From Deltaproteobacteria bacterium (lineage in GTDB: Bacteria > Desulfobacterota > Desulfobulbia > Desulfobulbales > Desulfurivibrionaceae), in the NCBI GenBank assembly GCA_021802645.1, contig JAJZRO010000022.1, positions 1-33,910 of the forward strand: DNA of 33,910 nt. The letters run 5' to 3'. Under the pieces are notes generated by a model. It did not search any database and had not been told where the DNA came from. It saw only the letters and a program-made list of their open reading frames with translations. How positions within the stretch are numbered: the stretch's first letter is position 1; each line of letters begins with the position of its first letter. Shown here in pieces: positions 7,444-26,193 of this stretch. The position numbers and the translations under genes were made by a program.

Positions 7444-9699
7444 ATGAGTGAAGATCTCCGCAAACGACTGCTCAAGCTCGAAGAGCGCATCAACTACCTC
7501 GGCCAGATCAAGGAGGGCACCGATTGGGGTAACCTGCCTGGCCTGCGGGAGAAGTACGCCCGGCTGCGCGGTTCCTTCTACGACCTCTCCCACGAGGAAC
7601 TGCTCGGCGAGATCACCGAGTTCGAGGACTCGCTGCTCTTTCTCGAAACGCGCTGCCAGGAGACCCTCACCCCGATGGAGCGGGTGCGCATCGTCCGCAG
7701 CCCCTTACGTTTCTCGCTCAAGGACATCCTGGAGAACGTCTACGAGGACTACACCGAACTCGGTGGCGAGGAGGATGCCAACATCGACCCCGCCATCGTT
7801 GCCGCCCGCGCCAGCATCTCCCGCCGGGTGAAGAACAAGGTCATCAGCCAGCAGGTGATGGTCATCGGGCATGAGAAGGGGCACGGCGAGGAGTACCGCA
7901 ACGGCGGCAGCACCAAGCCGTGGGGCAACGAGAAGGCCCTGCGCTACATGCGGGTCGCCGAGACCGAGGGCATTCCCATCCACTTCTTCGTCTTTACCCC
8001 CGGCGCCTTCCCGGTCGAGGATTACCCCGGCGCCGCCCAGCAGATCGCCCGCAACCTTTACGTGATGGCCAAACTTCGGGTGCCGATGATCGCCATTACC
8101 TCCGAGGGCGGCTCCGGTGGCGCCGAAGCGGTGGGAATGGGCGATATCCGTTTGATGTTCTCCCATGGCTACTACTCGGTGATCTCGCCCGAAGGCGCGG
8201 CGGCCATCGAGGGCAAGATTCGCGAAGGGGAGAAGGTGCCCAAGGAACTCATCGAGGAGTGCGCGACGCGACTCCACATCACCGCCACGGAGAACCTCGC
8301 CCTCGGCACCATCGACCGCATCATCCAGGAACCGTTGTTGGGCGCCAAGCGCGACGATTTCGCCTTCTTCCGCGAGATCAAGGACGAGGTGATCCGGGCC
8401 ACCGATGAAGTGGTCTTGAAGACCAAGAGCCTGCGCGCCTTCCGCGCCTACGATTTGAAGGTGAAGAAGGCAGAAGAGAATTCGACCGAGGAACCGCACA
8501 TCGACATCACCTGGGAGCTTGACAACGACGAGGTCAAACGGTTGCTGGCGCTGCGCTCTCGCAAGTACCGGAGCATGGCGAAGCAGGGATACGCCGAGAA
8601 GGAGACGGCCTGCACCCTCTGGTGCCAGCGGGCCCGCAAGAATCTGGCCAAGCTCTACTATTCCTTCCGCTACGACGTCTTGAAGCCCCAGCACAAACAG
8701 GTTCGCAAGGTGATTCAGGATGTCTCCGGCGAGGGCTCCATGCTGATCAAGCAGGTCTCCGCCCCCTTCACCTCGGCTTACGATTTCATCGTCCGCAAGC
8801 CTAGCGCCCGGCCGACCCGGATCGGCGGCTATCTTGCCGGCGTCGAGGAGCGGGTGGAGTTCGGCGAGACCTATACCAGCCCCTTGGCCAACGAGGATCG
8901 CACCATCACCTGCCCCAATGCCGAAAAGATGGGCTGCCGCGACCTCTGGGTGCCAGACCTCTATGGCGAGTTCTGCGGGGTCTGCGAGAACTGCGGCCAC
9001 CATTTCCCGCTGGAGTATGAGTGGTACCTGCGCCATCTCTTCGACCCCGGTTCCATCCGCGAGTTCAACAGCGAGATCGCCGCGGGCAACCCCCTTGGGT
9101 TTCCGGGGCTCGGCAAGAAGGTCCAGGCCGCGGCGGCGAAGACCGGCCGCAAGAGCGCCATGGTCACCTTCGACGCCAAGGTGATGGGCGTCGACATCGT
9201 GGTGGCCATGCTCTACAGCGATTTCCGCAACGGCACCGTCGGCTCGGCCGAGGGCGAAAAGTTTGCCCGCGCCTGCGAGGCTGCCAAGCTCAAGCGGCGT
9301 CCGCTGCTCTCGTACGTGCATACCACCGGCGGCATCCGCATTCACGAAGGCACCCTCGGCGTGGTGCAGATGCCCAAGTGCACGCTGGCGGTGCGCGAGT
9401 ACATCGATTCCGGCGGTCTCTACATCGTGGTCTACGACAACAATTCTTATGCCGGGCCGGTGGCGAGCTTCCTCGGCTGTTCGCCCTACCAGTTCGCCAT
9501 CCGTTCGAGCCGCATCGGCTTTGCCGGCCCGCGGGTCATCCGGGAGACCACCGGTGAGGACATCGCTCCCGACTACCACAACGCCCGCAGCGCCTTGAAG
9601 CGCGGCCACATCCAGGGTATCTGGGACCGCCGCGAGTTCCGCCGCAACCTGCACCGATCGCTGATGACCATGGGCGGCGGCAATCTCTACTACCGTTAA
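7444..9699 (+). CDS. Fused carboxyltransferase, AccA-like then AccD-like (alpha-beta)
   Basis: A single 751-residue chain carrying both halves of a carboxyltransferase that moves the carboxyl group from biotin to an acyl-CoA, most likely acetyl-CoA. Residues about 1-330 resemble AccA: a helical N-terminus, LTPMERVRIVR, then WGNEKALRYMRVAE, SEGGSGGAEAVGMGD and YYSVISPEGAAAI. Residues about 455-740 resemble AccD: cysteines at 490, 498, 511, 514 and 517 form a variant zinc ribbon, followed by a crotonase-type core with IGFAGPRVIRETTGED. The AccD ribbon is normally C-x2-C-x15-C-x2-C, so the spacing here is unusual. Bacterial CT is usually two separate proteins, and single-chain acyl-CoA CTs usually have the order beta then alpha. 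It starts 18 bases after the biotin carboxylase stop. Confidence 0.88.
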   Translation: MSEDLRKRLLKLEERINYLGQIKEGTDWGNLPGLREKYARLRGSFYDLSHEELLGEITEFEDSLLFLETRCQETLTPMERVRIVRSPLRFSLKDILENVYEDYTELGGEEDANIDPAIVAARASISRRVKNKVISQQVMVIGHEKGHGEEYRNGGSTKPWGNEKALRYMRVAETEGIPIHFFVFTPGAFPVEDYPGAAQQIARNLYVMAKLRVPMIAITSEGGSGGAEAVGMGDIRLMFSHGYYSVISPEGAAAIEGKIREGEKVPKELIEECATRLHITATENLALGTIDRIIQEPLLGAKRDDFAFFREIKDEVIRATDEVVLKTKSLRAFRAYDLKVKKAEENSTEEPHIDITWELDNDEVKRLLALRSRKYRSMAKQGYAEKETACTLWCQRARKNLAKLYYSFRYDVLKPQHKQVRKVIQDVSGEGSMLIKQVSAPFTSAYDFIVRKPSARPTRIGGYLAGVEERVEFGETYTSPLANEDRTITCPNAEKMGCRDLWVPDLYGEFCGVCENCGHHFPLEYEWYLRHLFDPGSIREFNSEIAAGNPLGFPGLGKKVQAAAAKTGRKSAMVTFDAKVMGVDIVVAMLYSDFRNGTVGSAEGEKFARACEAAKLKRRPLLSYVHTTGGIRIHEGTLGVVQMPKCTLAVREYIDSGGLYIVVYDNNSYAGPVASFLGCSPYQFAIRSSRIGFAGPRVIRETTGEDIAPDYHNARSALKRGHIQGIWDRREFRRNLHRSLMTMGGGNLYYR

Positions 9700-9715
9700 G
9701 CGCGAGGCCGAGCCG

Positions 9716-10366
9716 ATGATGGAGCCGGATATCGATTTTGATGCGGTCTTGAGCCAGTACCGTTCCGATCCGTACGATTACGTGGATGTCTGCACCTTGC
9801 ACACCGGCCGCCTCCGCTTCAAGGTGCGGAACGGCGCCAAGGTCGAAGGGCCGACCGGCAAGTGGCATCACCTCGCCGGCACCCTGCTCTACGAACTGGA
9901 GCGGGAGCGCAACCCCAAGAAGATCACCTGCGTCACCAACGGCGAGATCGCCGAGCTGCGGGACGAACTGGAGGGGGAGTTCGTCGAGGCGGGCGAGAAG
10001 GTCATGACCATCAAGCATCCGCTCAAGAAGCGGGAGATCATCGAGTCGATCCTGCGTCGGGTGCTCACCCCCTTCGTGGCGCCGGAAAAGGCCAAGTACT
10101 TCTTCTCTCTCGACTTGCAGGCCAAGATCGACAAGTACGGCCAGCGCGAGGTGGCGATCCGCCCCGGCGACGAGATTCTCACCATGAGCCTGATGAAGCG
10201 CGACACCCCGGTCTACTACCAGGGCGATCCGGGCATCATCCACTCGGTCTATTTCAAGCCCGGCGTGAGCGTCGAACAGGGCGAGCCCTTGATCGGCATC
10301 TGCCCCGAGGAGAAGCTCGCCTACATCCAGAAGATCATCACCCGCGTTAAGGCGGAGTGGGAATAA
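9716..10366 (+). CDS. Candidate biotin carrier protein of the carboxylase, non-canonical
   Basis: 216 residues. No close named family is recognised, but two stretches look like biotinyl/lipoyl half-folds. Residues 75-100 contain GEFVEAGEKVMTIKH. Residues 153-195 contain EILTMSLMKR, then GDPGIIHSVYFKPGVSVEQG and EPLIGI. The second stretch lines up with the part of BCCP around the modified lysine (EAMKM...GTV..I.V..GQ.V....PL..I), which makes K161 in SLMKR the best candidate for biotinylation; the normal EAMKM is absent. Its place between the carboxyltransferase and a biotin ligase gene supports a carrier role. It could instead be a structural subunit with the true BCCP elsewhere. Two adjacent ATG codons (9716, 9719) follow a GAGG. 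Confidence 0.68.
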   Translation: MMEPDIDFDAVLSQYRSDPYDYVDVCTLHTGRLRFKVRNGAKVEGPTGKWHHLAGTLLYELERERNPKKITCVTNGEIAELRDELEGEFVEAGEKVMTIKHPLKKREIIESILRRVLTPFVAPEKAKYFFSLDLQAKIDKYGQREVAIRPGDEILTMSLMKRDTPVYYQGDPGIIHSVYFKPGVSVEQGEPLIGICPEEKLAYIQKIITRVKAEWE

Positions 10367-10370
10367 GTCC

Positions 10371-11273
10371 ATGAACCCCGCCCAGCTGCGCCCCCTCTTC
10401 GAGGCCGAGGCGGCAGGGCGGGTTCCTTCCTTTTCCCCAGAGATTGCCTCCCGCATCATCCGCTACGGCAGCGTGGTCGGCAGCCGGATCGAGCGTTTCG
10501 ACCGCCGCGGCCGCTGCATGGACCATGGCCGCGACCTCATCCGCCAGTACGAGGAGGAGGGCCGTTCCTTCCCCTCCGGCATGGTGCTCATGGCGACCGA
10601 ACTCACCGCCGGCAAGGGCCGCTTCGCTCGCTCTTGGCATGCCCCCGAAGGCGGCCTCTGGCTCACCCTCATGCTGGTCAACACCCTGCTGCCCGAACAT
10701 GCCCGGTTCCTGTCGCTGGCCGTGGGCGTGGCCTGCTGCGAGGCAGCGCGCCACTTTGGCGTCGATGCCCACCTCAAGTGGGTGAACGACGTGCAGGTGG
10801 ACAACCGCAAGCTCTCCGGGGTGCTCATCGAAACCGAGCGCGGCCCGCGTTTCGGCGAGGAGTATCTCCTCATCGGCATCGGCCTCAACGTGAACAACGA
10901 GGCCTTCCCGCCGGAATTGCGCGACACCGCAATCTCGCTACGGCAACTCCTGGGGCGGAAACTCGATCTGGACGAGGTGGCCGGCCAATTGCTGGCCAAG
11001 CTCGCCTGGAACCTCGGCCTCTTGCACTATGCCGAGGCCGAGGCCCTGCACGCCGTCGGGGAGATGGCGGCGCCCCATCCCATTTTGGCCCGCTGGCTGG
11101 AATTGAGCGACACCGTCGGCCGCCGGGTTCTCTTTGGCTTCGACGTGCAGCAGGCCCCACAGTATGAGGCGGTGGTCGAAGGGCTCGATCCGGCCGGCGG
11201 CCTGATCCTCCGATTGTGCGAAGACCACACCACCGTGGTCGAGCACGCCGGCGAGATTCTCTACCTCGACTGA
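10371..11273 (+). CDS. Biotin-[acetyl-CoA-carboxylase] ligase (BirA catalytic type)
   Basis: 300 residues. The enzyme activates biotin as biotinyl-AMP and attaches it to the carrier lysine. The ligase core is seen in ELTAGKGRFARSWHAPEGG (the family's TAGRGR...W motif) and LKWVNDVQVDNRKLSGVLIE (KWPND and the RK-GIL lysine), followed by GIGLNVNN. A C-terminal SH3-like region reaches the end (VVEGLDPAGGLILRL, then EHAGEILYLD). There is no N-terminal helix-turn-helix, so it should not act as the biotin repressor. The N-terminal ~75 residues are unlike typical ligases and may fit a divergent carrier. It begins 4 bases after the carrier gene stop, so the two are very likely co-translated. Confidence 0.9.
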   Translation: MNPAQLRPLFEAEAAGRVPSFSPEIASRIIRYGSVVGSRIERFDRRGRCMDHGRDLIRQYEEEGRSFPSGMVLMATELTAGKGRFARSWHAPEGGLWLTLMLVNTLLPEHARFLSLAVGVACCEAARHFGVDAHLKWVNDVQVDNRKLSGVLIETERGPRFGEEYLLIGIGLNVNNEAFPPELRDTAISLRQLLGRKLDLDEVAGQLLAKLAWNLGLLHYAEAEALHAVGEMAAPHPILARWLELSDTVGRRVLFGFDVQQAPQYEAVVEGLDPAGGLILRLCEDHTTVVEHAGEILYLD

Positions 11274-11509: not shown

Positions 11510-14500
11510 ATGCTATTGCAGAATCTGAACATCGGTAAAAGGCTGAATGTGGGCTTTGGCGTGGTGCTGGCCTTGCTGGCGCTGGTGGTGGCCATCGCCT
11601 TCGTGAACGTGAACCGGCTGGACGACCTCATCATGACCACCGTTCACGACAAGTTCCAGAAGGTCGAGTTGCTGGCCGGTGTCCACGAGGAGACCAATAT
11701 CGTGGCGCGTGCCCTGCGCAACATGGTCATTCAGCCGGACCCCGAGACCATCCGCAAGGAAAACGCCCGCATCGCCGAGGCTGAAGAGAAGATCGCCAGG
11801 GATCTGGAGCAGCTCCAGACCGTGGTCCGGTCCCAGGAGGGCATGCGCCACCTGACCGCAGTGACCGAAGCCCGCAAGAGTTACCTGGACCGGGTGGCAA
11901 CCCTGCAAGAGATGATTCGCCAGGGTCGTGCCAAAGAGGCTTCGGCTGAGCTCTTTGGCAGGTTCCGCGAGGTGCAGACCGCCTACTTCAAGGCCCTGGA
12001 CGAGATGACGCACTACCAGGTCGGCGAGGTGGAGCGGGTCGGTCAGGATGCCGACCAGCTGGCCGGGAGCGCCAAGCTTCTCATCGTGGTGCTGGGATTC
12101 GCCGCCCTGCTGCTTGGTGGATGGCTTGCCTGGTATATCGCCCGCTCCATTACCCGTCCCATCGATGGCTGCGTGAAGGCAGCCAACGCCCTGGCTGCTG
12201 GCCAGACCGACCTGGACCTCGATACCAGCGCCAAGGATGAGACCGGCACTCTACAGACCGCCATGGTGAAGATGGCGGAGGCGATCAACGACATGATCGC
12301 CGATGTCTCCACGCTGGCGGGCGCAGCGGTGGCAGGCAAGCTTACGGCCCGGGCCGATGCGACCAAACATCAGGGCGATTTCAAGCGGATCGTTGAGGGG
12401 GTCAACAACATCATGGCGCGGCTGGTGGGGCTGCTCGACACCATGCCGGCGCCGGCCATGATCATCGACAACGATTTCACCGTGCAGTACATCAACGAAC
12501 TGGGGGCCAAGGCGGGCGGCAGGACGCCGGCCCAGCTCATCGGCTCCAAGTGCTACGATCACTTCAAGACCGCGGATTGCGGCACCGACAAGTGCGCCTG
12601 CGGCCGGGCGATGCGCGACGGACGGAACGCCAACAGCGAGACCGACGCCCATCCGGCGCCGGGGGTTGATCTGGACATCGCTTACAGCGGCACCCCGCTT
12701 CGCGACGAGCAGGGCCGTATCATCGGCGCTTTCGAGGTGGTGAGCGACCAGACCGCCGTCAAAAAGGCGGCCCGGCTGGCCGAAAAGGTGGCGGCCTACC
12801 AGAAGGCCGAGACGGAAAAGCTGGTCGCCTGCATCGCCAAACTGGCCCAGGGTGATACCCAGTGCACCGTGATCCCGGCAACCGGGGATGCCGATACCGC
12901 CGAGGTCCGGCAGGTCTTTGAGACCATTGCCGAATCCTTCGGCAGCTGTCTCAAGACGGTCAGCGCCCTGGTGGCCGATGTGAATCTGCTGGCCAAGGCA
13001 GCGGTGGAGGGGCGGCTCACGGCCCGGGCCGATGCCGCCAAGCATGAGGGCGATTTCAAGCGGATCGTTGAGGGGGTCAACAACATCATGGCGCGGCTGG
13101 TGGGGCTGCTCGACACCATGCCGGCGCCGGCCATGATCATCGACAACGATTTCACCGTGCAGTACATCAACGAACTGGGGGCCAAGGCGGGCGGCAGGAC
13201 GCCGGCCCAGCTCATCGGCTCCAAGTGCTACGATCACTTCAAGACCGCGGATTGCGGCACCGACAAGTGCGCCTGCGGCCGGGCGATGCGCGACGGACGG
13301 AACGCCAACAGCGAGACCGATGCCCATCCGGCGCCGGGGGTTGATCTGGACATCGCTTACAGCGGCACCCCGTTGCGCGACGAGCAGGGCCGTATCATCG
13401 GCGCTTTCGAGGTGGTGAGCGACCTCACCGCCATCAAGCAGGCCGGCCGGGTAGCGCAGAAGGTGGCGGATTACCAGAATGCCGAAACGCGCAAGTTGGT
13501 GGGCTGGCTCAATCTGCTGGCCCAGGGCGACACTGCCTTTACCATCGCCGCCGAGCGGGCGGATGCCGACACCGAGCCGGTGCAGCGGGTCTTCGAGGAG
13601 ATCGGCTCGGCGCTCAAAACCCTCACCGAGGCCCTCAACACCATCACCGCTGCGGCGAGCGAGATTGCCGGCGGCAATCTGCTGGTGGAACTGAACCAGC
13701 GCAGCGAGCAGGACGCCCTCATGCAGGCCCTGCAGGAGATGGTGCAGAAGCTCAAGGCGGTGATCCGCGATGCCCAGTCCGCGGCCGAGCACGTGGCGGC
13801 CGGCAGCGTCCAGCTTTCTTCCACCGCCCAGGGCATGTCCCAGGGCGCCACCGAGCAGGCAGCCAGCGCCGAGGAGGTCTCCGCCTCCATGGAGGAGATG
13901 AGCTCCAGCATCCGTCAGAACGCCGACAACGCCAACCAGACCGAGAAGATCGCCATGCAGTCGGCCAACGACGCCAGCGAGGGCGGCAAGGCGGTGGCCG
14001 AGACGGTGGGCGCCATGAAGGAGATCGCCACCAAGATCAACATCATCGAGGAGATCGCGCGGCAGACCAACCTGCTGGCGCTCAATGCCGCCATCGAGGC
14101 GGCCCGGGCCGGCGAGCACGGCAAGGGTTTCGCGGTGGTGGCCTCCGAGGTGCGTAAGCTCGCGGAACGAAGCCAGTCCGCAGCCAACGAGATCAGCCGG
14201 CTTTCCACCCGCAGCGTCGCCATTGCCGATGCGGCGGGCGAGAAGCTGGGCAGAATGGTGCCGGACATCCAGAAGACCGCCACCCTGGTTCAGGAGATCA
14301 GCGCCTCCTGCCGGGAGCAGGACGCGGGTACCGAGCAGATCAGCAACGCCATCCAGCAGCTCGACCAGGTCATCCAGCAGAACGCTTCGGCAGCCGAGGA
14401 GATGGCCGCCACCGCCGAGGAGCTTTCCGGCCAGGCTGCCCAGTTGCAGGAGGCCATTGCCTACTTCCGCATGGAGGAAGGCTCGGGCCGCATCACCGCC

Positions 14501-14656
14501 GCCCTGCATGCGCCGGCAGGCAAACCGGCTCCCCGGCTGGCGGCGCCGCCAGCGCCCAAACCTTTGGCAAAACCGCCGCGGGCGGCGAAGGCGGGCGGCC
14601 ATGTTCTTGATCTGGGGGAGAAGGGGCACCTCGACGAGGAATTCGAGCGTTACTAG
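11510..14656 (+). CDS. Methyl-accepting chemotaxis protein with two near-identical Cys-rich PAS domains
   Basis: 1048-residue inner-membrane chemoreceptor. TM1 is at about 12-34 and TM2 at about 188-210, with a helical periplasmic sensor between them. HAMP-like segments follow, then two cytoplasmic PAS domains (residues about 289-414 and 514-639). Each PAS carries C-x8-C-x4-C-x-C (C348/357/362/364 and C573/582/587/589), which may bind a metal, heme or Fe-S cluster or act as a redox switch. The signalling hairpin is canonical ([40 protein letters not shown]). The C-terminal tail ends in EEFERY, fitting the CheR/CheB tether pattern of two aromatic residues separated by two. It has its own promoter and a strong terminator, so it is transcribed alone. 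GAGAGG lies upstream of the ATG. Confidence 0.95.
12374..12749 (+). repeat. PAS-coding repeat, copy 1
   Basis: A 376-base segment repeated at 13049-13424 (offset 675 bases, 225 codons). I counted three mismatches, all synonymous, so the two PAS domains are identical at protein level here. The flanking linker sequences have diverged much more. Confidence 0.95.
13049..13424 (+). repeat. PAS-coding repeat, copy 2
   Basis: Second copy of the 376-base PAS segment, in the same frame and orientation as copy 1. The differences from copy 1 are GAT for GAC and TTG for CTT. Sequence just upstream (HAMP-like, [12 protein letters not shown] against [12 protein letters not shown]) is similar but not identical. 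Confidence 0.95.
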
Positions 14657-14777: not shown

Positions 14778-14959
14778 TGGAATATCCGCCTAACATTTTC
14801 GGAAGATTCGGGGGAAAACTTCCGGCCGTTTCACGCAGTAGCTTGCCGGCGGGGGAGTCTTTCTTTGCGTTTGGTATTGGCTTGTTCTGGTTGCAAGCCA
14901 CATGGGGTGATGTCCGTAGAGGACTTGACTGAATGGTATCTTTGTCTGGAGAGACTGCT

Positions 14960-17422
14960 ATGATGCTCAAAAACATGAAGATTAAAGTGAAGTTGGTCAG
15001 CAGTTTTTTATTGGTCGCGGCGTTGGTGGCGGTGGTCGGTGCCTTTGGTAGCCTCAAGGTGCACCAGGGTAGTGATACCGATATCTTCCTCTACGAGAAG
15101 TGTACCATTCCGCTGGGTTTGCTCATCAATGTGGAAACGGGTTTCGAACGTTCCGCCGCCAACATCGCCTCCATGGTCTATCAGCGGAACGCCGGCCAGA
15201 TGAAGGCCGTCGAGGAATCCATGGATGCCGCGGACCTGGCTCTGCGAGATTACAAGAAGACCCTGATCGATGCCGAGGCTGAGAAGGACTACAACCAGGC
15301 CTTGGTCCAGTGGGCCGCCTGGAGCAAGTTCATCGATCAGGAAAAAGAGTTGCTGCAGGCCGAGCGGTACGATGCCGCCCTAACGTTGCAGAATGGGGAA
15401 GGCCGACAACTCGGCAAGGCGACGAGGAGCCTCTTCGAAAAGATCGAGGCCCGCAACATCGACGCGGCAAAGAAGATATCTGACAACAACATTGCCATGG
15501 CCAACAGCACCACGAGGTGGATCTATTTTGCCATCGGCGTGGGGGTACTTGTTGCCGTTGGCATGGGGCTTCTGGTGACCAAGGCCATCACCCAGCCGCT
15601 CCAGGCCTGTGTGGATGCGGCCAAGGCTATTGCCATCGGCAATACCGAAGTGCATCTGGATACCAGCGCCACCGATGAGATCGGCATGTTGCAGACCGCC
15701 ATGGCCCAGATGGTGGAAGCGATCAACGCCATGATCGAGGAGGTGGACCTGCTGGTGACCGCCGTCTGGCAGGGAAGGATCACCACCCGTGCCCAAGCGG
15801 ACAGGCACCAGGGCGATTACCGGAGAATCGTCGCCGGGATCAACAGCGTCATGGACCGATTGGTGGGGATGCTCGATACCATGCCTTCGCCGGCCATGAT
15901 CATCGATAACGATTTTACCGTCCGGTATATGAACGAACTCGGAGCCAAGGTGGGCGGCAGGAGTCAGGCCCAGGTGATCGGCACCAAGTGCTACGATCAC
16001 TTTAAGACCAGCGACTGCAAGACCGAGCGATGCGCCTGTGGCCGCGCGATGCGCAATGGCCAGGAGGCCAGTTCCGAGACGGACGCCCATCCTTCCGTGA
16101 GCCTTGACCTGGACATCGCGTACAGCGCCACCCCCCTTAAAGATGAACAGGGCAGGATCATCGGCGCCGCCGAGTGGGTCACCGACCAGACTGCCATCAG
16201 GCAGGCGGCCAGGGTGGCGGCCAAGGTCGCCACCTACCAGGAGAACGAGACCCAGAAATTGATGGAACTCCTGAACAGCCTTGCCAAGGGTGAATTGGAC
16301 CTCGCCGTTGCAACCGCCCCGGCCGACAGCGATACCCAGGCGGTCAAGCAGGTTTTTGACGGCATCGGCACGGCGGTGGCGGCGTTGGTCAAGGCGTTGA
16401 AGGAGGTCAGCTACACGGCTGGTGAGATTGCCGGCGGTAATTTGCAGGTCCAGTTGCGGAAGAGGAGCGACCAGGATGTGCTGATCCAGGCATTGCAAGA
16501 CATGGTAACCAAGCTGAAAGAGGTGATCACTGACGTGCGTGCCGCCGCCGATCAGGTGGCGGCCGGGAGCCAGCAGTTGAGCGGCAGCTCCCAGGAGGTC
16601 TCCCAGGGCGCGAGTGAGCAGGCCGCCTCGGTGGAGGAAATCTCGACCTCTATGGAGGAGCTGGCCTCCACCGTGGCGCAGAGCGCTGACAATGCGCGGC
16701 AGACGGCGACTATTGCGGGGAAGGCGTCGGAGGATGCGGCAGCGGGCGGTAAGGCGATGGGAGAAACGGTGGCGGCCATGCAGCACATCGCCGAAAAGGT
16801 GGCGCTGATCGAGGAGATCGCGCGGCAGACCAACCTGCTGGCCTTGAACGCCGCCATTGAGGCGGCCCGGGCCGGCGAGCACGGTAAGGGTTTCGCGGTG
16901 GTGGCTTCGGAGGTGAGGAAACTGGCGGAACGGAGCCAGGTTTCGGCGCAAGAGATCAAGACAGTTGCGGCGGAGAGCGTCCAGACGGCGGCCAATGCCG
17001 GGAAATTGATCAACGACATCGTGCCGCAGATCCAGAAGACCGCCGAACTGGTGCAGGAGATCGACGCCGCCGCCAATGAGCAGGCGCGCGGCATCGAGGA
17101 AAACACCAAGGCGGTCCAGCAGTTCGATCAGGTGATCCAGGCCAACAGTGCGGCCGCGGAGGAGATGGCCTCCACCAGCGAGGAGCTGACCGCCCAGGCG
17201 GAACACCTGCAGGATATCATCGCTTTTTTCAGGATGGGAGAGATGGCGGTCGGTGGAAATCCCTCGGAAAGGATACTGGTTGGGCAGAAGAGGTTGTCGA
17301 GAGCGGCAGCGCCGCCCATTGCAGCGGTTCCGCGTTCCTCCGCACGTCCAACGATTGAGAGATGCCAAGGGGCACAGTTGGTGCTGCAAGACAAACCGGA
17401 ATTCGATTTCGAACGGTATTAG
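14960..17422 (+). CDS. Methyl-accepting chemotaxis protein with one Cys-rich PAS domain
   Basis: 820 residues. TM1 is at about 12-31, followed by a periplasmic four-helix-type sensor, then TM2 at about 188-208, HAMP, one PAS (about 290-420), a second linker and the MCP signalling domain ([20 protein letters not shown]). The PAS has the same C-x8-C-x4-C-x-C set as the first receptor (C344, C353, C358, C360). The protein ends in FDFERY, a likely CheR/CheB docking tail after a flexible linker. The start at 14960 is chosen because GGAGAG lies 6 bases upstream; the open frame extends to 14933. Its signalling domain is closer to that of the third receptor than to the first, and a 112-base stretch is identical between the two. 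It has its own promoter. Confidence 0.95.
17038..17149 (+). repeat. 112-base exact repeat in MCP signalling domain, copy 1
   Basis: Identical to 18851-18962 in the third MCP gene. It encodes the segment around [20 protein letters not shown]. Third-position identity over the whole length suggests recent duplication or gene conversion rather than protein constraint alone. Confidence 0.9.
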
Positions 17423-17550: not shown

Positions 17551-17571
17551 ATGGGAGAGCTCGGTTTATGA
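17551..17571 (+). CDS. Possible 6-residue leader ORF overlapping the third MCP start
   Basis: ATG at 17551 reads MGELGL and stops at TGA 17569-17571, which overlaps the MCP ATG at 17568 as ATGA. The mini-ORF contains the GGGAGAG that serves the MCP start and has a purine-rich GGAGGGGAG about 12 bases upstream. Translational coupling is possible, but such a short frame can arise by chance. Confidence 0.25.
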
Positions 17572-19238
17572 AGAAGAATATCCGCAACAAGATGCTCCTT
17601 GCCTTTGGCGGAGTCTGCGTGGTGCTGGTGATCCAGCTCCTGGTGAACGGCTTTTTCCAGAGCCGGGTGGTCAGCAGCGTGGAAACCGCGCGGGACAAGG
17701 GGTACGGCGCGAACGATCACGCCCAGAATATCGAAATCGAGGCACTGAAGGTGCGGGAACTCCTCACCGACGCGAGTGTGGTCCGCACGGCCGAGGCCCT
17801 GACCAGTGCGGTCAAGACGGCTGAGGAACATAGCATAAAGCTACGGGAAAGCAGCGAGGCGCTCAAGACGCTCCACCCGGAAAAACGACGCGAGATAGAG
17901 GAAATAGAGAAACTTTTCGGCGAGATGTCGGAAAAGGGCAAACACGCGGCCGAGTTGTACGCCAAGGGGGATTTGGCAACCGGTACCAAGATTTCGGGCG
18001 AATTCGATGCCGCAGCCGAAAATTTGAGCAATCGGTTGGATCAACTGGAAGAGGAGATGGTCACGCAAGCACACGGTGATATCGCCGCGGCGGTTTCCAC
18101 CATCAGGCTTTCCGGCATCATCAGCATCGTGCTGGCTCTGGCCATTATCGTCTTTACCGTAATCCTGGCCTTTGTCTTCTCGGGCCGCATCGCCGGCGCG
18201 CTCCAGAAGATGGTGGTGCTCGCCGAGTCGATCGCCGACGGCGATCTGACCAAGGAGCATGCGGTGATGAACGAGGAGGACGAAATCGGCCAGCTCTCCC
18301 GGTCGCTCGCCCGCATGGAAACCAAGCTCAAACAGATCATCAACGACGTGCGGGCCGCGGCCGATCAGGTGGCCGCCGGCAGCCAGGAGTTGAGCAGCAG
18401 CTCCCAGGAGGTTTCCCAGGGGGCGAGCGAGCAGGCCGCCTCGGTGGAGGAGATTTCCGCCTCCATGGAAGAACTGGCGAGCACCGTGGCGCAGAGCGCC
18501 GACAATGCGCGGCAGACCGCGACCATCGCCAAGAAGGCCTCGGAGGACGCAGCGGCCGGTGGCAAGGCCATGCAGGAGACGGTGGCGGCCATGCAGCATA
18601 TTGCCCAGAAGATCGAGGTGATCGAGGAGATCGCGCGGCAGACCAACCTGCTGGCCTTGAACGCCGCCATCGAGGCGGCGCGGGCCGGCGAGCACGGCAA
18701 GGGTTTCGCGGTGGTGGCTTCCGAGGTGCGCAAGCTCGCCGAACGCAGCCAGGTTTCTGCCCAGGAGATCCGGGGCGTGGCGGCATCGAGCGTGGAAACC
18801 TCGACCCATGCCGGCAGGCTCATCGAGGATATCGTGCCGCAGATTCAGCGGACCGCCGAACTGGTGCAGGAGATCGACGCCGCCGCCAATGAGCAGGCGC
18901 GCGGCATCGAGGAAAACACCAAGGCGGTCCAGCAGTTCGATCAGGTGATCCAGGCCAACAGTTCGGCCGCCGAGGAGATGGCCGCCACCAGCGAGGAATT
19001 GACCGCGCAGGCCGGACAGTTGCAGGATACCATCGGGTTCTTCCGGGTGAGCGCCCTGCCTGGTGTCGGGGCTGAGCGAAAGACGGTGGCGCTGCACCGG
19101 GCGCTACCCCAGCCAAGCCGTCAGCCGGCAGCCAGCCGGTTCTTGCCCAAAACGGCCCCGCCAGCTCACCACGCCGAGGGACAGGGGGTCAAGCTGGAGT
19201 TGAAGGAAACCCACGACCCTGAATTCGAGAGATATTAA
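17568..19238 (+). CDS. Methyl-accepting chemotaxis protein (short, no PAS)
   Basis: 556 residues. TM1 is at about 8-30 and TM2 at about 180-205, bracketing a helical periplasmic domain rich in charged residues. HAMP (about 205-260) and the MCP signalling domain follow, with the hairpin tip [20 protein letters not shown]. The linker after the signalling domain is rich in Pro and Ala and ends in DPEFERY, the same tail type as in the other two receptors. It is the first gene of the che operon: cheA begins 18 bases after its stop. GGGAGAG precedes the ATG. Confidence 0.95.
18851..18962 (+). repeat. 112-base exact repeat in MCP signalling domain, copy 2
   Basis: Matches 17038-17149 base for base (offset 1813). 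Similarity continues on both sides with scattered silent changes. Confidence 0.9.
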
Positions 19239-19256: not shown

Positions 19257-21395
19257 ATGAGTGAATCAGAGTATGGCGAGGTGTTTCGCGAAGAGGCGAC
19301 GGAGCTGCTGGAAGAGTTGGAAAGCGCCCTGCTGGAGCTGGAAAAGAACCCGACCGACCTCAAGATCGTCGGCCGGGTTTTTCGGGCCATGCATACCATC
19401 AAGGGGTCGGGCGCCATGTTCGGTTTTGACGACATCGCCAAGTTCACGCACCATGTCGAGACCGTGCTCGACAAGGTACGCGACGGTGCGGTGCCGGTGA
19501 CCAAGGAACTGATCGACCTCACCCTCGCCTCCCGCGACCATATCACCGCCCTGCTGGATGCCGCCACCGGCACGGGGGCGGCCGATCCGGCCAGGGGCGA
19601 GGAAATCATCGCCGGGATGCAGACACTGGTGGCTGCCGCAACCGGCGACGCGGCCCCGGCCCCGGCCCCGGCGGCCAAGCAACCCGAAGCGGCGCCGGTC
19701 GAAAGCGAAGCGCCCCAAGACAAGACCGTGGGGCAGCTTACCCATTATCGCATCCACCTGAAGCCCACGGCGGAATTCTTTGCCGCGGGCGGTGGTGTGG
19801 AGCCGCTGCTCGACGAGCTGCGAAAACTCGGGGAATGCACGGTCTTCCTGCACGAACCTCAGGCCAGGGAGGCCGGCGACTATGGCTTGTGGGAGGCCTT
19901 GCTCACCACGAAGCAGGGCATCAACGCGGTGAGGGATGTCTTTGTCTTTGCCGAGTCGAGCTGTCTGGTCAAGGTGGTGCCGCTGGCCACCGAGGGCGAC
20001 GAGGAGTTCAGCGAACACAAGCGGCTGGGCGAGATTCTGGTGGAGCGCGGCGAGATCGCGCCGGAAGCGCTGAAAGAGATTCTCGACCAGCAGAAGCCGC
20101 TCGGGGAACTGCTGGTGGAGGCCAAGCTGGTAACCCGCACCAAGGTGGAATCCGCCCTGGCCGAGCAGGAGATGCGGAAATCCCAGAAGCTGGCCGCGCA
20201 GAAAGCCAAAGCGGCAGACTCCATCCGGGTCGGAGCCGACAAACTCGACCGCCTCATCAATCTGGTGGGCGAGCTGGTGGTGACCCAGGCGCAACTGACC
20301 CAGGTCGCCTCGCAGCTCGGCGAGTCCGATCTGGTGGAGCCGGTGGAACAGATCGAGCGGCTCACCGCCGAGATGCGCGACTGCGTGCTGGGTATCCGCA
20401 TGCTGCCCATCGGCACCACCTTTGCCCGCTTCAAGCGCCTGGTGCGCGACCTTTCCACCGAACTGGGCAAGGATGTGGTGATGCAGACCGACGGCGCCGA
20501 GACCGAACTGGACAAGAACGTCATCGACCAGCTCGGCGACCCGCTGGTGCACCTCATCCGCAACAGCATCGACCATGGCATCGAAGCGCCGGATGCGCGC
20601 GAGGCCGCCGGCAAGCCACGCCGGGGCGCCATCCACCTCTCGGCCACCCACGCCGGGGCCAACGTGCTGATCACCGTTTCCGACGACGGCCGCGGCCTCG
20701 ACCGGGAAAAGATTCGTGAGAAGGCCATCGCCAAAGGACTCATCAAGCCGGAGGCCGAGGTGGATGACGCCGCGATCTTCAATACCATTTTCGCCCCAGG
20801 CCTCTCTACCGCCGGCACCGTCACCAGCGTTTCGGGCCGCGGCGTCGGCATGGACGTGGTGAAGAGCACGGTGGAGGGGTTGAAGGGCTCGGTTTCGGTG
20901 CACAGCAGCGGGAAGGGCAAAGGCACCACCATCGCCATCTCCCTGCCGCTGACCCTGGCCATTATCGACGGCCTGCTGGTGCAGGTGGAGGACACCCATT
21001 TTGTGTTACCGCTCTCTCAGGTGTTGGAGTGCGTGGAGCTGACCAAGGAGGACATCGCCCGATTCCACGAGCGGCGGGTGTTGCCGGTGCGGGATCAACT
21101 GGTGCCCTACGTGCGGCTGCGGGATTTTTTCGCCATTCCCGGGCAGCGGCCCGACCTGGAACAATTGGTGATCGTGGAGATCAACGACGAACGCTTCGGC
21201 GTGGTGCTCGACGACGTGATCGGCGAACATCAGACCGTCCTGAAGTCGCTGGGCTGGGTCTACCGGAACGCCATCGGCGTTTCCGGTTCCACCATTTTGG
21301 GCAATGGCAAGGTGGCGCTGATCCTTGACATGCCGAATGTGTTGAAACATGCGCGCCTTGAGGAACAGGGCGCGATTCGGAATATCGTTCATTAA
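19257..21395 (+). CDS. cheA: Chemotaxis histidine kinase CheA
   Basis: 712 residues. It autophosphorylates and passes phosphate to response regulators and CheB at receptor arrays. The domains in order are: HPt (1-105) with phosphoacceptor H46 in AMHTIKGSGAMFGF; an Ala/Pro linker; a P2-like region at about 160-245; an insert at about 253-308 with two LGE-type repeats (LGEILVERGEIAPEALKEIL and LGELLVEAKLVTRTKVESAL) that resemble the N-terminal domain of GspE/MshE ATPases; a dimerisation domain (GADKLDRLINLVGELVVTQA); a HATPase (HLIRNSIDHGIEAP, SDDGRGLD, SGRGVGMDVV); and a C-terminal CheW-like domain. The insert is not in E. coli CheA and may bind a nucleotide or partner. Confidence 0.97.
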   Translation: MSESEYGEVFREEATELLEELESALLELEKNPTDLKIVGRVFRAMHTIKGSGAMFGFDDIAKFTHHVETVLDKVRDGAVPVTKELIDLTLASRDHITALLDAATGTGAADPARGEEIIAGMQTLVAAATGDAAPAPAPAAKQPEAAPVESEAPQDKTVGQLTHYRIHLKPTAEFFAAGGGVEPLLDELRKLGECTVFLHEPQAREAGDYGLWEALLTTKQGINAVRDVFVFAESSCLVKVVPLATEGDEEFSEHKRLGEILVERGEIAPEALKEILDQQKPLGELLVEAKLVTRTKVESALAEQEMRKSQKLAAQKAKAADSIRVGADKLDRLINLVGELVVTQAQLTQVASQLGESDLVEPVEQIERLTAEMRDCVLGIRMLPIGTTFARFKRLVRDLSTELGKDVVMQTDGAETELDKNVIDQLGDPLVHLIRNSIDHGIEAPDAREAAGKPRRGAIHLSATHAGANVLITVSDDGRGLDREKIREKAIAKGLIKPEAEVDDAAIFNTIFAPGLSTAGTVTSVSGRGVGMDVVKSTVEGLKGSVSVHSSGKGKGTTIAISLPLTLAIIDGLLVQVEDTHFVLPLSQVLECVELTKEDIARFHERRVLPVRDQLVPYVRLRDFFAIPGQRPDLEQLVIVEINDERFGVVLDDVIGEHQTVLKSLGWVYRNAIGVSGSTILGNGKVALILDMPNVLKHARLEEQGAIRNIVH

Positions 21396-21431: not shown

Positions 21432-21980
21432 ATGGCGACCAATACCGAAGGCGTTGAGCAGCAGGCCACCCAATATCTGACCTTTGTGCTGCGTGACGAG
21501 GGCTTTGCCATCGAGATCGGCAAGGTGCGGGAGGTGCTCGACGTCACCACCCTCACCCGGATTCCCCGCATGCCCGACTACCTGAGCGGCGTCATCAATC
21601 TGCGCGGCAGCGTGGTGCCGGTGATGGACCTGGGCCAGAAGCTCGGCATGGGGCCGATCAGCCACACCAAGAATACCTGCATCATGATCGTGGAACTGGA
21701 GGTGGAAGGCGCCATGGTGGAGATGGGGGTGCTCACCGACTCCGTCCAGATGGTGCTCGACCTCCAGGCCGAGGAGATTGAGGCGGTGCCGCGCATGGGC
21801 ACCAACCTCAACACCGAGTTCATCAAGGGCATGGGCCGGCAGGGTGAGGACAAGTTTTTGATCATCCTCGACATCGACCGGGTCCTGGCCAGCGAGGGCG
21901 AGGCCGCCTTGCGCGGCGAGATGGTACCCTCTGTCACTGAAACGCAGGAAGCGGCAAGGGCTGACGCCGGCGCGGCGTGA
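21432..21980 (+). CDS. cheW: Chemotaxis coupling protein CheW
   Basis: 182 residues, a typical CheW length. It links receptors to CheA. Family signatures include YLTFVLRDEGFAIEIGKVREVL near the start, then TRIPRMPDYLSGVINLRG, VVPVMDLGQKLG and the later GTNLNTEFIKGMGRQGED with FLIILDIDRVL. Near position 21424 GAGGAAGG precedes the ATG. The last ~20 residues form an Ala-rich extension. Confidence 0.96.
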   Translation: MATNTEGVEQQATQYLTFVLRDEGFAIEIGKVREVLDVTTLTRIPRMPDYLSGVINLRGSVVPVMDLGQKLGMGPISHTKNTCIMIVELEVEGAMVEMGVLTDSVQMVLDLQAEEIEAVPRMGTNLNTEFIKGMGRQGEDKFLIILDIDRVLASEGEAALRGEMVPSVTETQEAARADAGAA

Positions 21981-22039
21981 GCCTGGCTGCGTCAAGGGAC
22001 TGAACGCCTGAGTTTGAGCAACGAGTGTTAGCGAGTGTT

Positions 22040-22927
22040 ATGGATTCAACCCCTGGCTTACGAGTTTCCGACGGGGAAAGCCCGGCCCCACCCATGCTGA
22101 GCGACCGGGACTTCAACAAGTTCAGCTCCTTCATTTACGAAGTCTGCGGCATCAAGTTGCCGCCGATCAAGAAGACCATGCTCTCCGCCCGCCTCCAGAA
22201 ACGGTTGCGGCGGCTGAACATGGCCTCGTACAGCGCCTACTTCGAGTATGTGCAGAGTCCGGAAGGGCAGGTCAACGAACTCTTCCACATGATCGATGCG
22301 GTGAGCACCAACAAGACCGATTTCTTCCGCGAGCCCCAGCACTTCGAGGTGATGAACCAGAAGGTGCTGCCGGAATTCCTGGCCCGGCACCACAAGTATC
22401 CGCAAGCCCGCCCGCTGCATGTGTGGAGCGCCGGTTGCTCCACCGGTCAGGAACCCTATACCCTGGCCATGGTGCTCCAGGAGTTCTGTGAAAAGAATCC
22501 CCAACTCGATTACGAGATCCTGGCCACCGATATCTGCACTCAGGCCCTGGAGGCCGCCGCCGAGGCGATTTATGCCGATGAGGTGGTCGCGCCGGTGCCG
22601 GCTCATCTGCGGCACAAGTACCTGATGAAGGGCAAGGGTCGCCACAGCGGTTTCCATCGCGTGGTGCCGGAGTTGCGCAACAAGGTGCGCCTTGAGCGGC
22701 TCAATTTCATGGATCGGGATTTCAGGATCAACAAGAAGATGGACATCATCTTCTGCCGGAACGTCATCATCTATTTCGACCGGCCGACCCAGCAGACCCT
22801 GTTTGAGAAATTCTACCGGCAGTTTGCCCCGGGCGGCTTCCTTTTCACCGGCCATTCCGAGTCGCTGGAGGGGATTACCGACCGAATGGAACGCATCGAC
22901 TCGGCGGTGTATAAATGTCTCAAGTAG
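22040..22927 (+). CDS. cheR: Chemotaxis protein methyltransferase CheR
   Basis: About 295 residues. It methylates glutamates of receptors using S-adenosylmethionine. The N-terminal CheR domain begins at LSDRDFNKFSSFIYE. The methyltransferase core shows NKTDFFREPQHFE, VWSAGCSTGQEPYTLAM (AdoMet loop), ILATDICTQAL and IFCRNVIIYFD, ending with FLFTGHSESL. The start is uncertain: ATG 22040 is used here, but GTG 22025 and ATG 22094 are in frame and none has a good ribosome binding site. A 10-base near-tandem repeat (CGAGTGTTAG/CGAGTGTTAT) lies at the start. Its beta-subdomain would dock to the FERY tails of the receptors. Confidence 0.94.
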   Translation: MDSTPGLRVSDGESPAPPMLSDRDFNKFSSFIYEVCGIKLPPIKKTMLSARLQKRLRRLNMASYSAYFEYVQSPEGQVNELFHMIDAVSTNKTDFFREPQHFEVMNQKVLPEFLARHHKYPQARPLHVWSAGCSTGQEPYTLAMVLQEFCEKNPQLDYEILATDICTQALEAAAEAIYADEVVAPVPAHLRHKYLMKGKGRHSGFHRVVPELRNKVRLERLNFMDRDFRINKKMDIIFCRNVIIYFDRPTQQTLFEKFYRQFAPGGFLFTGHSESLEGITDRMERIDSAVYKCLK

Positions 22928-23424
22928 ACCCACTGCAGAGCGAGTTGCCGGTGGTGACTCTCCACCCGGGCGAGTTGTTCGTGGCAACGGAACCGACCCT
23001 CATTACCACCCTTCTTGGCTCCTGCGTCTCGGTCTGCCTCTATTGCCGGGCGAGCAGGGCCGGCGCCATGTGCCACGGAGTCATGCCGGGGCAGGGAGGG
23101 CACCAGGAAGAGAGTTTCCGGTTCGTTGACACCTCGGTTTCCTATATGGTCGAGGTGATGGCCCGGCAACGGGGATTTTCCTGCGCCAGACTTGAGGCAA
23201 AACTCTTCGGCGGCGCCGACCTCTTCAGCCTGAAGCCGAGCCCGGCCAGGCAGACGTCCAGCATCGGCACCCAGAATATCCAGGCGGCCAGGGCGGTACT
23301 CCAGAAACACGGGGTACCCGTTGTCACCGAGCAGGTGGGCGGCGATCGGGGCTGCAAGCTCTTTTTCTACACCCATACCGGCGAGGTGTATCTGAAGCAC
23401 CTCCAACGGACAACAGGCGAGTGA
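22915..23424 (+). CDS. cheD: Chemoreceptor glutamine deamidase CheD
   Basis: 169 residues. It deamidates receptor glutamines and in some systems works with CheC. The catalytic cysteine is C37 in [13 protein letters not shown] and the histidine is H54 in GAMCHGVMP; the later [11 protein letters not shown] and [13 protein letters not shown] fit the family. The gene overlaps the end of cheR by 13 bases, so the two are coupled. No CheC or CheX partner is in the window. Confidence 0.95.
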
Positions 23425-23426
23425 AC

Positions 23427-24497
23427 ATGGCCGGCAAACTGAGGGTACTCATAGTCGATGACTCCGCGGTGGTCCGCCAGACGCTGCACGATATCCTGGA
23501 GTCGGACCCGCAGATCGAGGTGATGGGCGCGGCGCGCGATCCCTTCGTGGCCGCCGATTATATCGCCAAGGAGGTGCCGGACGTCATCGTGCTCGATGTC
23601 GAGATGCCGCGGATGGACGGCATCACCTTCCTGCACAAGATCATGACCCAGCATCCCATTCCGGTGGTGATCTGTTCGACCCTCACCGAAGGGGGGGCCG
23701 CGACCACGATCAAGGCCCTGGAATACGGGGCGGTGGATATCATCACCAAACCCAAGCTCGGCACCAAGCAGTTCATCGAGGAGTCACGCATCCGCATCTG
23801 CGATGCGGTCAAGGCCGCCGCCAAGGTGCGGGTCAAGTCGGTCTCCGCTCCCGTTGTCCGGCCGGTGGAGAGAAAGCTCACCGCCGACGTCATGCTGCCG
23901 CCGCCGGCCAAGGCCATGGTGCAGACCACCGAGCGGGTGGTGGCGGTGGGGGCCTCCACCGGCGGCACCGAGGCGCTGCGGGTCTTTCTGGAGGCGTTGC
24001 CCGGCGATTGTTCCGGGATCGTCATTGTGCAGCACATGCCGGAAGGATTCACCCGCGCCTTTGCCGAGCGCCTCAATGGCATCTGCCGCATCCGGATCAA
24101 GGAGGCGGAGGATGGCGACACGGTGTTGCGCGGTCAGGCCCTGATCGCGCCCGGCAACCGCCACACCCTGCTGAAGCGCAGCGGCGCCCGTTATTACGTG
24201 GAGGTCAAGGATGGTCCGCTGGTTTGCCGCCACCGTCCCTCGGTGGATGTGCTCTTCCGCTCCACCGCCCGCTATGCCGGCAAGAACGCCATCGGCGTCA
24301 TCATGACCGGCATGGGCGACGACGGCGCGCGCGGCATGCTGGAGATGAAGGAGGCCGGCGCGTACACCATTGCCCAGGACGAGAAGTCCTGCGTGGTGTT
24401 CGGTATGCCCAAGGAGGCGATCGCCTTGGGCGGGGTGGACAAGGTGCTGCCGCTGGAGCGGATCGCCCCGGAAGTATTGCGTATGCAAACTATTTGA
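23427..24497 (+). CDS. cheB: Chemotaxis response regulator methylesterase CheB
   Basis: 356 residues. The N-terminal receiver has the phosphoacceptor D57 in [11 protein letters not shown]. The C-terminal methylesterase/deamidase has S177 ([10 protein letters not shown]), H203 (VQHMPEGF) and D299 ([10 protein letters not shown]) as the expected triad. It removes methyl groups from receptors when phosphorylated by CheA, opposing CheR. ATG 23427 is preferred because AGGCGAG lies 5 bases upstream; a GTG at 23421 overlapping the cheD stop is the alternative. Confidence 0.96.
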
Positions 24498-24522
24498 TTC
24501 TCGCGTTGGCAATCAGTACAAT
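24494..24522 (+). promoter_or_regulatory. Promoter-like sequence before the HEAT-receiver gene
   Basis: TTGATT (24494-24499), a 17-base spacer and TACAAT (24517-24522). The -35 box overlaps the cheB stop codon. It would let the next gene be expressed apart from the che operon. Confidence 0.5.
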
Positions 24523-24600: not shown

Positions 24601-26193
24601 ATGGACAGCCTCAAGGACTTTCGCGCCAAAGACATGATCGAGCAGATCACCTTGCTCGACCAGATACGGGAAGCGGGCGAGACCGCTGCGATTCCTGCCC
24701 TCTTCGATCTCTACGCCAACCCCATCGGGGATCAGGCGGTGGACGAGATGATCTATCATGCCCTTTTTGGTCTGCTGGCCGGGCAACATGCCCGCATCGA
24801 GGAGGGGTTGGCCCATGGCTCGCCGGCCGTGCAATTGCTCTGTGTCCGCCGTGCCGGCGAAGAAAAGGCCGAGGCGCTCAAGGACCCCCTGGTGGCGCTG
24901 CTCGGCAAGACCGCCAGCGTCGAACTTGCCGGGGAGATTCTCCGGGCGCTGGCCCAGTACAAGGATGCTTCCCTGATCGACACCCTGCTGCCCTTTTTGC
25001 GCCACGACGACTACACCGTGGTGGCCTGGGCCTTGCGGGCGCTGACCAATATCCACACCCCCGCGGTGCGCGACCTCCTGATCGAGCGCATCGACAACAG
25101 CGCCGAGGTGAAGGGCGCGGCCATGGGCTGCGACCTGCGTACCGCCCTGATGGTGGAAGGGGTGGCGGGGTTCACCGACAGCGCCACGGTGGATTATCTC
25201 ATCGGTCACATCCACCATGGCAATCCCTCGTTCCGCCGCGTGGTGCTTGCGGCCCTAGGCTCGATGGGGGAGGTGGCGCTGCCCGCCCTGGAGAAGACGC
25301 TGGAGGCGGGCGACAAGGATGAAAAGATCATGGCCGCCAATATTCTCGGGCTCACCGGCCACAAAAAGGCGGCGGACATTCTGGTGGCGCATCTGGAGGC
25401 CGCGACCGAACCGAACCTCCGTTTTGCCATGTATGAGGCCCTGGGGCGGATCAACTCGCTTCGCAGCATCATCGGCCTGGCGGACGGGCTTGCCGAACCG
25501 GAGGAGTTGGTTCTCATCGCAGTGGTGACCGCGCTGGACCACCTGGTCAATCCGGGGGTCATCAAGGCGGTGAACGAGGCGCTGGACAAGGGCGGCAGCC
25601 AGGCGGAGCATATCGCCAAGGCGATTGCCACCTCCCGGGCGAAAAATCTCTTTGCCGCCCTCTATGGCGACGGCACTTACCGGGCGCTGGTGATGCAGGC
25701 GATCCACTCCTCGGCCGATGCCGAAATCAAGCGGATCTTCAAGGCGCTGCTCGACAAGGTCGGCAGCGACGAAGCCAAGGCGGATGCCGCCAAACTGGAT
25801 GCCGCTGCGGCGGGGGCGCCGGCGGCGGGCAAACGGTTGCTGGCGGCCGACGACTCCAAGGCCATGCTCTTTTTCTACAAAGGGGTGGCGGCGGACCTCG
25901 GCATGGAGATGGTCACGGTCGCCGATGGCAAGCAGGCCCACGATCATCTGCAGATCGACAGCGATTTTGTGCTGGTGATCACCGACATGAACATGCCGAA
26001 CATGGACGGCATCGAGTTGACCAGGGCGATCCGCGCCAACGCGGCCCTGGCCGGGCTGCCTATCCTGATGGCCACCACCGAATCGGAAAAATCCCAGGCC
26101 GACCTGGCGCGGACCGCGGGAGTCACCGACTTCATCACCAAGCCCTTTGGCAAGGAGGATTTCAAGGCCAAGGTAACGGCAATGCTCAAGTAG
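24601..26193 (+). CDS. HEAT-repeat protein with C-terminal receiver (CheY-like) domain
   Basis: 530 residues. Residues about 1-395 are helical HEAT/PBS-type repeats; examples are VVAWALRALTNIHTPAVRDL, FRRVVLAALGSMGEVALPAL and EKIMAANILGLTGHKKAADI. A short Ala-rich linker leads to a receiver at 410-530 with the acidic pair (AADDSKAM), phosphoacceptor D462 (VITDMNMPNMDG), a threonine in MATTES and the lysine in ITKPFG. Receivers of this type are phosphorylated by CheA. HEAT repeats usually bind proteins, so the protein may be a signal output, an adaptor or a phosphate sink. It follows cheB by 103 bases and has its own promoter-like sequence. The ATG at 24601 is chosen for GGGAAG upstream; the frame is open to 24370 but overlaps cheB there. 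Confidence 0.9.
   Translation: MDSLKDFRAKDMIEQITLLDQIREAGETAAIPALFDLYANPIGDQAVDEMIYHALFGLLAGQHARIEEGLAHGSPAVQLLCVRRAGEEKAEALKDPLVALLGKTASVELAGEILRALAQYKDASLIDTLLPFLRHDDYTVVAWALRALTNIHTPAVRDLLIERIDNSAEVKGAAMGCDLRTALMVEGVAGFTDSATVDYLIGHIHHGNPSFRRVVLAALGSMGEVALPALEKTLEAGDKDEKIMAANILGLTGHKKAADILVAHLEAATEPNLRFAMYEALGRINSLRSIIGLADGLAEPEELVLIAVVTALDHLVNPGVIKAVNEALDKGGSQAEHIAKAIATSRAKNLFAALYGDGTYRALVMQAIHSSADAEIKRIFKALLDKVGSDEAKADAAKLDAAAAGAPAAGKRLLAADDSKAMLFFYKGVAADLGMEMVTVADGKQAHDHLQIDSDFVLVITDMNMPNMDGIELTRAIRANAALAGLPILMATTESEKSQADLARTAGVTDFITKPFGKEDFKAKVTAMLK

Follow-up and report, generated by a model that had tools for sequence, protein, structure and literature searches.

The closest described systems, in which a HEAT-repeat protein works with chemotaxis components, come from Myxococcus xanthus and Halobacterium salinarum. 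Here we analysed a protein that combines a HEAT solenoid with a receiver domain in one polypeptide, encoded at the end of a che gene cluster in a 33,910-nucleotide stretch of DNA (contig JAJZRO010000022.1 of assembly GCA_021802645.1, from a deltaproteobacterium of the order Desulfobulbales; hereafter the window). On balance, we favour the reading that this genome has a second, insulated chemosensory system, for which the HEAT-receiver protein serves as dedicated output response regulator.

In M. xanthus, which has no flagella, Darnell et al. are reported to have found in 2014 that the binding of the receiver protein CheY7 to the HEAT protein Cpc7 depends on phosphorylation and on the alpha4-beta5-alpha5 face. 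Two reports describe the interaction of CheY7 with Cpc7 and an effect of the system on aggregation and sporulation (PMC11514114, PMC9040617), and the tables of a third place an MCP (methyl-accepting chemotaxis protein), CheW, CheA, CheR and CheB together in the Che7 cluster (PMC3945109). Che7 resembles the window in that the HEAT protein is encoded with the cheA operon and is the partner of a CheY-type receiver, whereas CheY7 is a free protein of 125 residues and the window joins HEAT and receiver in one polypeptide, with no free CheY in the cluster. The window protein and Cpc7 are likened here by description. By analogy, we judge that the window protein would be a fused form of the CheY7–Cpc7 kind, and a new one; its parts are ordinary, while their arrangement is uncommon and conserved.

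In H. salinarum, CheD and a DUF439 (CheF) protein are interaction partners of the HEAT_PBS protein OE2401F, on which the switching of the motor depends (PMC2666748). Like the window protein, OE2401F is a HEAT protein of a chemotaxis region, acting there between the Che system and the motor; it differs in having HEAT only, without the receiver of the window protein, in serving an archaeal motor and in being paired with CheF. Among Geobacter che clusters, those described as 'E. coli-like type 2' share with the window several MCPs with an xF/YxxF/Y tail and cheD, and hold ORFs (open reading frames) of unknown function, according to a survey (PMC2577667) whose main text has 0 occurrences of HEAT. 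The window protein shares the receiver fold and active site of CheY, which is a single-domain protein, whereas the window protein has 530 residues, a HEAT solenoid and F511 as the equivalent of Tyr106. CheV is likewise a larger chemotaxis protein that ends in a receiver, with a CheW domain where the window protein has the solenoid. A HEAT-receiver chain standing in for CheY in a che cluster was not found in our searches, which covered open-licence papers.

Architecture and active site of the HEAT-receiver protein

The protein and its parts are as follows.

24601..26193, + strand: HEAT-receiver protein, 530 residues (translation; Pfam HEAT_2 and Response_reg; AlphaFold2 model)
24601..25809, + strand: HEAT solenoid, residues 1–403, 26 helices in the model (Pfam; AlphaFold2; PDB profile matches)
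25831..26190, + strand: receiver domain, residues 411–530, CheY fold (Pfam; alignment; AlphaFold2; superposition)
25984–25986, + strand: phospho-acceptor D462 (alignment)

The initial annotation had described a HEAT-repeat protein with a C-terminal receiver and the acceptor D462 at this position; coordinates, frame and length were right, and Pfam agreed, matching HEAT_2 in three stretches (E 1.3e-26) and Response_reg over residues 414–525 (E 1.3e-20). The AlphaFold2 model, made from an alignment of 44 sequences, had a mean pLDDT (predicted local distance difference test score) of 91.7 and a pTM (predicted template modelling score) of 0.84, and consisted of helices to residue 403, a short link of low confidence (approximately residues 401–410) and a complete alternating receiver fold. 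On the best-matching chain, 4hnr (Vibrio cholerae CheY4), the modelled receiver superposed with a Z score of 22.6 and a root-mean-square deviation of 1.2 over 120 residues. By sequence, the HEAT profile matched alphaRep designs and phycocyanobilin lyase HEAT folds in the PDB, which indicates the repeat type of the HEAT part only. The fold-library matches listed were filled by the receiver (residues 408–530) and are thus uninformative about the solenoid. By score the closest curated family was CheY, far under its cut-off (71.7 of 189 bits), and Pfam gave no match to a CheW domain in the protein. A longer reading from a TTG start at 24370 was rejected, as most aligned relatives begin at a Met aligned with 24601. 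At the end of cheB, positions 24494–24522 hold one of two promoter-like matches found (0.5 expected), so transcription of the HEAT-receiver gene may also start from a promoter of its own, in addition to that of the operon.

The receiver retains the residues of a phosphorylatable response regulator: the Asp pair (D417, D418), the phospho-acceptor Asp (D462), the Thr/Ser site (T492) and the Lys (K514). D462 aligns with the phospho-acceptor and did not vary among 20 close sequences in an alignment that counts the window protein as one of them. Among 56 HEAT-receiver sequences, D417 and K514 were found in all 56, D418, D462 and T493 each in 55, and position 492 was Thr in 51 and Ser in 5. The tree of these 56 took in 9 of the 51 distant loci described below (L117–L167) and 9 further distant sequences, and left out six HEAT-only ORFs (L069, L070, L078–L081) and the truncated L191. 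In this set, the distances of the HEAT part and of the receiver part correlated at 0.92, which fits joint descent and is on its own no proof of contact between the two. The receiver was more conserved than the solenoid in L048–L053 (73–78% versus 56–61%), suggesting constrained partners.

Gene order in the window and among relatives

The genes preceding the HEAT-receiver gene in the window are listed below; all were assigned by Pfam.

11510..14656, + strand: MCP 1, with 4HB, HAMP and two PAS_4 copies, tail EFERY
14933..17422, + strand: MCP 2, with 4HB, HAMP and PAS_4, tail DFERY
17568..19238, + strand: MCP 3, with HAMP, tail EFERY
19257..21395, + strand: CheA, with Hpt, dimerisation, ATPase and CheW-like domains, without a receiver
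21432..21980, + strand: CheW
22025..22927, + strand: CheR
22915..23424, + strand: CheD
23421..24497, + strand: CheB, carrying the only other receiver of the window (also Response_reg scan)

Together with a rhomboid protein, these make up the nine further window ORFs identified by Pfam. The initial annotation had also held that the only receiver besides CheB is that of the HEAT protein and that the cluster lacks cheY and cheX. The scans agreed on all of this: the whole-genome Response_reg scan placed two receivers on the contig (CheB, 23445–23753; HEAT-receiver, 25840–26175) and no free cheY in the window, and a CheX domain scan of the genome placed no cheX there. For cheC, cheZ and cheV, also given as absent, no window ORF resembled one on reading, and no dedicated model search was made.

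The architecture, for which a survey of other che clusters had been proposed, recurs widely in the order. A query with the HEAT part matched 44 of 146 genomes of the order at E 1e-20, 31 of them closely (E 5.9e-76 or better), and gene order was inspected in 21 of the 31 close loci. The typical order was mcp-cheA-cheW-cheR-cheD-cheB-HEAT-receiver. In 19 of the 21, cheB lay upstream on the same strand, directly adjacent in 18; a gene for a 779-residue hybrid kinase stands between the two in L048, and cheB is split into two ORFs in L064. Seventeen of the 21 have cheA (in L057, a contig end truncates the locus), and none of the 21 has a free CheY between cheA and the HEAT-receiver gene. One candidate for a free CheY, a 165-residue receiver ORF upstream of the MCPs in the L049 cluster, was rejected as the end of a 1174-residue hybrid kinase. 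Chance or misannotation of the HEAT-receiver gene was ruled out by its retention across many genera. In the window's family, 17 carriers had 1–5 CheA matches (median 3) versus 0–4 (median 1) in 10 non-carriers, as expected if the whole system is gained or lost as a unit.

No che gene was found beside the HEAT-receiver gene in two close loci, L060 and L067. The L067 protein (9173–10777, − strand) is also the sole exception to the acidic site (D418E, D462E, N464V), and its receiver looks unphosphorylatable.

In a scan of named genomes, 80 of 162 relatives were kept, comprising 26 close ones (L088–L113, 40–61% identity), three intermediates and 51 distant ones (L117–L167). The close set belongs mostly to Desulfobulbaceae, Desulfurivibrio and other deltaproteobacterial metagenome assemblies, and many of its members are the same loci as the close carriers of the order-wide search. 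In the distant set, cheA, cheB or cheR was present in the flanking DNA examined in 17 of 51 loci, and most of these 17 have a CheA with a receiver of its own. A phylum-wide sample yielded carriers in 18 of 395 genomes at E 1e-28. From 14 carriers outside the order, 15 loci were obtained, and in seven of these, spread over three families, cheX directly adjoins the HEAT-receiver gene (L186, L187, L195, L196, L197, L198 and L200). Two cheX copies lie close together upstream of the HEAT-receiver gene in L195 (7697–9500) and in L196–L198. In another relative (L068/L115, one locus), an Hpt domain is fused ahead of the HEAT-receiver protein.

Six loci hold HEAT-only ORFs of 220–238 residues, with 33–40% identity to the solenoid's first half.

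L078, 9842–10528: HEAT-only ORF
L079, 305–1021: HEAT-only ORF
L080, 9843–10523: HEAT-only ORF
L081, 9655–10317: HEAT-only ORF
L069, 5190–5861: HEAT-only ORF
L070, 7426–8109: HEAT-only ORF

In L078, L080 and L081, an HDOD-type ORF of approximately 495 residues lies approximately 1.3 kb from the HEAT-only ORF.

Proposed signal flow from the window CheA

The conserved cheA...cheB pairing without cheY, the retained active site, the cheX neighbours and the Hpt fusion together support the passage of phosphate from the window CheA to the HEAT-receiver protein; judging from these sequence features, the receiver is probably a substrate of that kinase. The initial annotation had proposed such a transfer 'instead of' CheY. 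The transfer itself is supported by the gene pairing, the active site and the cheX and Hpt neighbours, but the second half of the proposal is not claimable because CheY is encoded elsewhere in the genome: free CheY-like proteins, for which a search had been suggested, were found outside the window, and the flagellar contig C11 carries two of these. The notion of a genome with no CheY was accordingly discarded.

The receptors bear on insulation. The genome encodes eight MCPs, three in the window and five elsewhere; those of the window have EEIARQTN tips and xFERY tails, whereas the other five have IAFQTN tips and other tails, two of them ending in EFTDF and EFQDF. Since the window tips and tails are unlike those of the rest of the genome, we read the cluster as insulated. 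The same signatures recur in the relatives' loci, with an EEI(A/S)RQTN tip in 21 of 22 receptor ORFs and an xFERY-like tail in 19 of 22. The tip motif of the window MCPs fits class 34H, to which they may belong. According to the Geobacter survey, tethered class 34H receptors bear an xF/YxxF/Y motif (PMC2577667). This motif fits all three window tails (EFERY, DFERY, EFERY) and also EFTDF and EFQDF.

Based on the conserved gene order and the receptor signatures, the three receptors and CheW would drive the window CheA. Phosphorylated CheA would then pass phosphate to D462 of the receiver, as it would to CheB, and a CheX-type phosphatase encoded elsewhere in the genome could reset the receiver, a step suggested by the gene pairs in relatives. 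The genome has four CheX matches (C37, C32, C11 and C35). By analogy with CheY7–Cpc7 of M. xanthus, the phosphorylated receiver might alter its contact with the solenoid in cis and thereby open or close a partner-binding surface of the solenoid; we regard the chances for and against such a cis switch as balanced. In the weakest step, the partner would belong to or modulate flagellar motility, reached through the solenoid and not through a CheY–FliM peptide contact. If correct, this scheme speaks to the question of how cells with several chemosensory systems keep their outputs apart, the proposed answer being that an array with a receptor class to itself also has an output protein to itself, and one of distinct structure. 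The one bacterial HEAT–CheY pair studied would then no longer be peculiar to Myxococcus but an instance of a widespread principle, whose fused, separate and cheX-paired forms could be compared.

Several findings weigh against a dedicated output regulator. The genome scanned (2.55 Mb, 99.4% complete) has 88 Response_reg matches, several of them free CheY-like proteins, and the window lacks a cheX of its own. In 34 of the 51 loci L117–L167, the gene is an orphan without cheA, cheB or cheR in the flanking DNA examined. Two more distant lineages have a free CheY in the very cluster that holds the HEAT-receiver gene. In L116/L199 (one locus), a 121-residue CheY precedes cheA, and L189 (8483–15429, − strand) and L191 combine the HEAT-receiver fusion with a free CheY (118 residues) and a separate HEAT protein (355 residues); the HEAT-receiver protein thus need not replace CheY, and the latter two loci let the fused and the separate form be compared within one cluster. 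Residue 511 was Phe in 37, Ile in 14, Val in 4 and Leu in 1 of the 56 sequences and never Tyr, which argues against a direct CheY-like contact with FliM. At the FliM-contact positions of Escherichia coli CheY (90, 95, 106 and 108), the window protein has Ser, Ala, Phe and Thr, whereas a 127-residue CheY at 81.2 kb of C11 has Ala, Ile, Tyr and Val. Finally, flagella are common in the phylum, and kinship confounds the co-occurrence with FliM given below.

The 127-residue CheY lies among flagellar genes and outside both che clusters, and with its canonical FliM-contact residues the window CheA may serve it. On this basis, the free CheY of the flagellar locus could be the main target of the window CheA. 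The HEAT-receiver protein would then be an auxiliary, acting as a sink for phosphate or as an adaptor by which the array is tuned or localized, in a role like that of CheV or sink CheYs. The clusters in which a free CheY and a HEAT-receiver protein coexist are in keeping with such a role. The distinct receptor tips and tails of the window are against it, as are the greater conservation of the receiver, with its hint of constrained partners, and a conserved solenoid of 400 residues, for which a sink would presumably have no need. We consider an auxiliary role unlikely.

The gene follows cheD-cheB in many loci, which would also suit a HEAT part with binding partners inside the cluster (CheD, receptors or CheA) and a receiver that feeds back on adaptation, within the array and with no downstream output. 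Orphan copies that stand beside cheX only, far from receptors, and gene-bearing loci in which cheD was not found (e.g. L055, L056, L059 and L061) make this very improbable. A dedicated output regulator remains the preferred reading.

Co-occurrence with flagella and further features of the window

To which output such a regulator would lead was assessed from the distribution of flagellar switch genes. FliM was present in 42 of 44 carriers of the order versus 66 of 102 non-carriers, and both FliM-less carriers (86% and 78% complete) have FliG. When only CheA-bearing genomes were counted, FliM occurred in 42 of 44 carriers versus 59 of 82 non-carriers (Fisher p 0.0018, uncorrected for kinship); with the 31 close carriers the figures were 29 of 31 versus 72 of 95 (p 0.037, kinship likewise ignored). 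Outside the order, all 14 carriers have FliM, so that FliM or FliG was found in 58 of 58 carriers examined. Carriers were thus confined, in these samples, to genomes with flagellar switch genes, which makes a role independent of flagella less likely but is no proof of a flagellar role; from these sequence data, a flagella-linked output has about even prospects.

The initial annotation had envisaged an output other than the flagellar motor, an idea that the 58 of 58 carriers disfavour. In this alternative, the HEAT part would steer gene expression, development or surface or pilus behaviour, as in M. xanthus Che7. It draws on CheY7–Cpc7, the only bacterial HEAT-receiver pair found described, which acts on aggregation and sporulation (PMC11514114, PMC9040617), on the loss of the FliM-contact residues, and on a separate CheA/CheY/CheX set on the flagellar contig. 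That contig holds part of the flagellar genes, with FliM at 91.0 kb, and has, at 112–118 kb, a separate CheA, CheR, CheD, HDOD protein, 146-residue CheY, CheX and CheB; C35 holds FliG and a third CheA. The flagellar switch genes of all carriers examined stand against a non-motility output. Of the 25 genomes in the order with a CheA but no FliM, only two are carriers, and each of these is incomplete and has FliG. We regard this alternative as decidedly unlikely.

A bolder extension of the preferred reading is that HEAT-receiver proteins are a class of CheY in their own right: a motor adaptor made in one piece, whose receiver is flipped on the solenoid by phosphorylation and whose solenoid, in place of a FliM-peptide contact, reaches the flagellar motor. 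We put this forward tentatively, as a rather doubtful possibility. If it were true, a second receptor array would have a different way to influence the same motor, and in haloarchaea the same solution would be split among separate parts.

The remaining observations concern the window at large and its kinase and receptors. Rfam gave nothing at gathering score on the window. Pfam detected no P2 domain in CheA at E up to 5; between its Hpt and dimerisation domains (approximately 20013–20195), CheA has two LGE-LV...Q-like repeats that are reminiscent of MshEN/T2SSE_N modules; Pfam gave only a weak match, to DUF4388. In MCP 1, an exact repeat of approximately 125 residues starts at residues 289 and 514, 225 residues apart, and is a recent internal duplication of the PAS region. 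The PAS regions of MCP 1 and MCP 2 share a cysteine cluster, CYDHFKT(A/S)DC..CAC, which is absent from all 22 receptor ORFs of the relatives' loci and is a possible redox or metal sensor.
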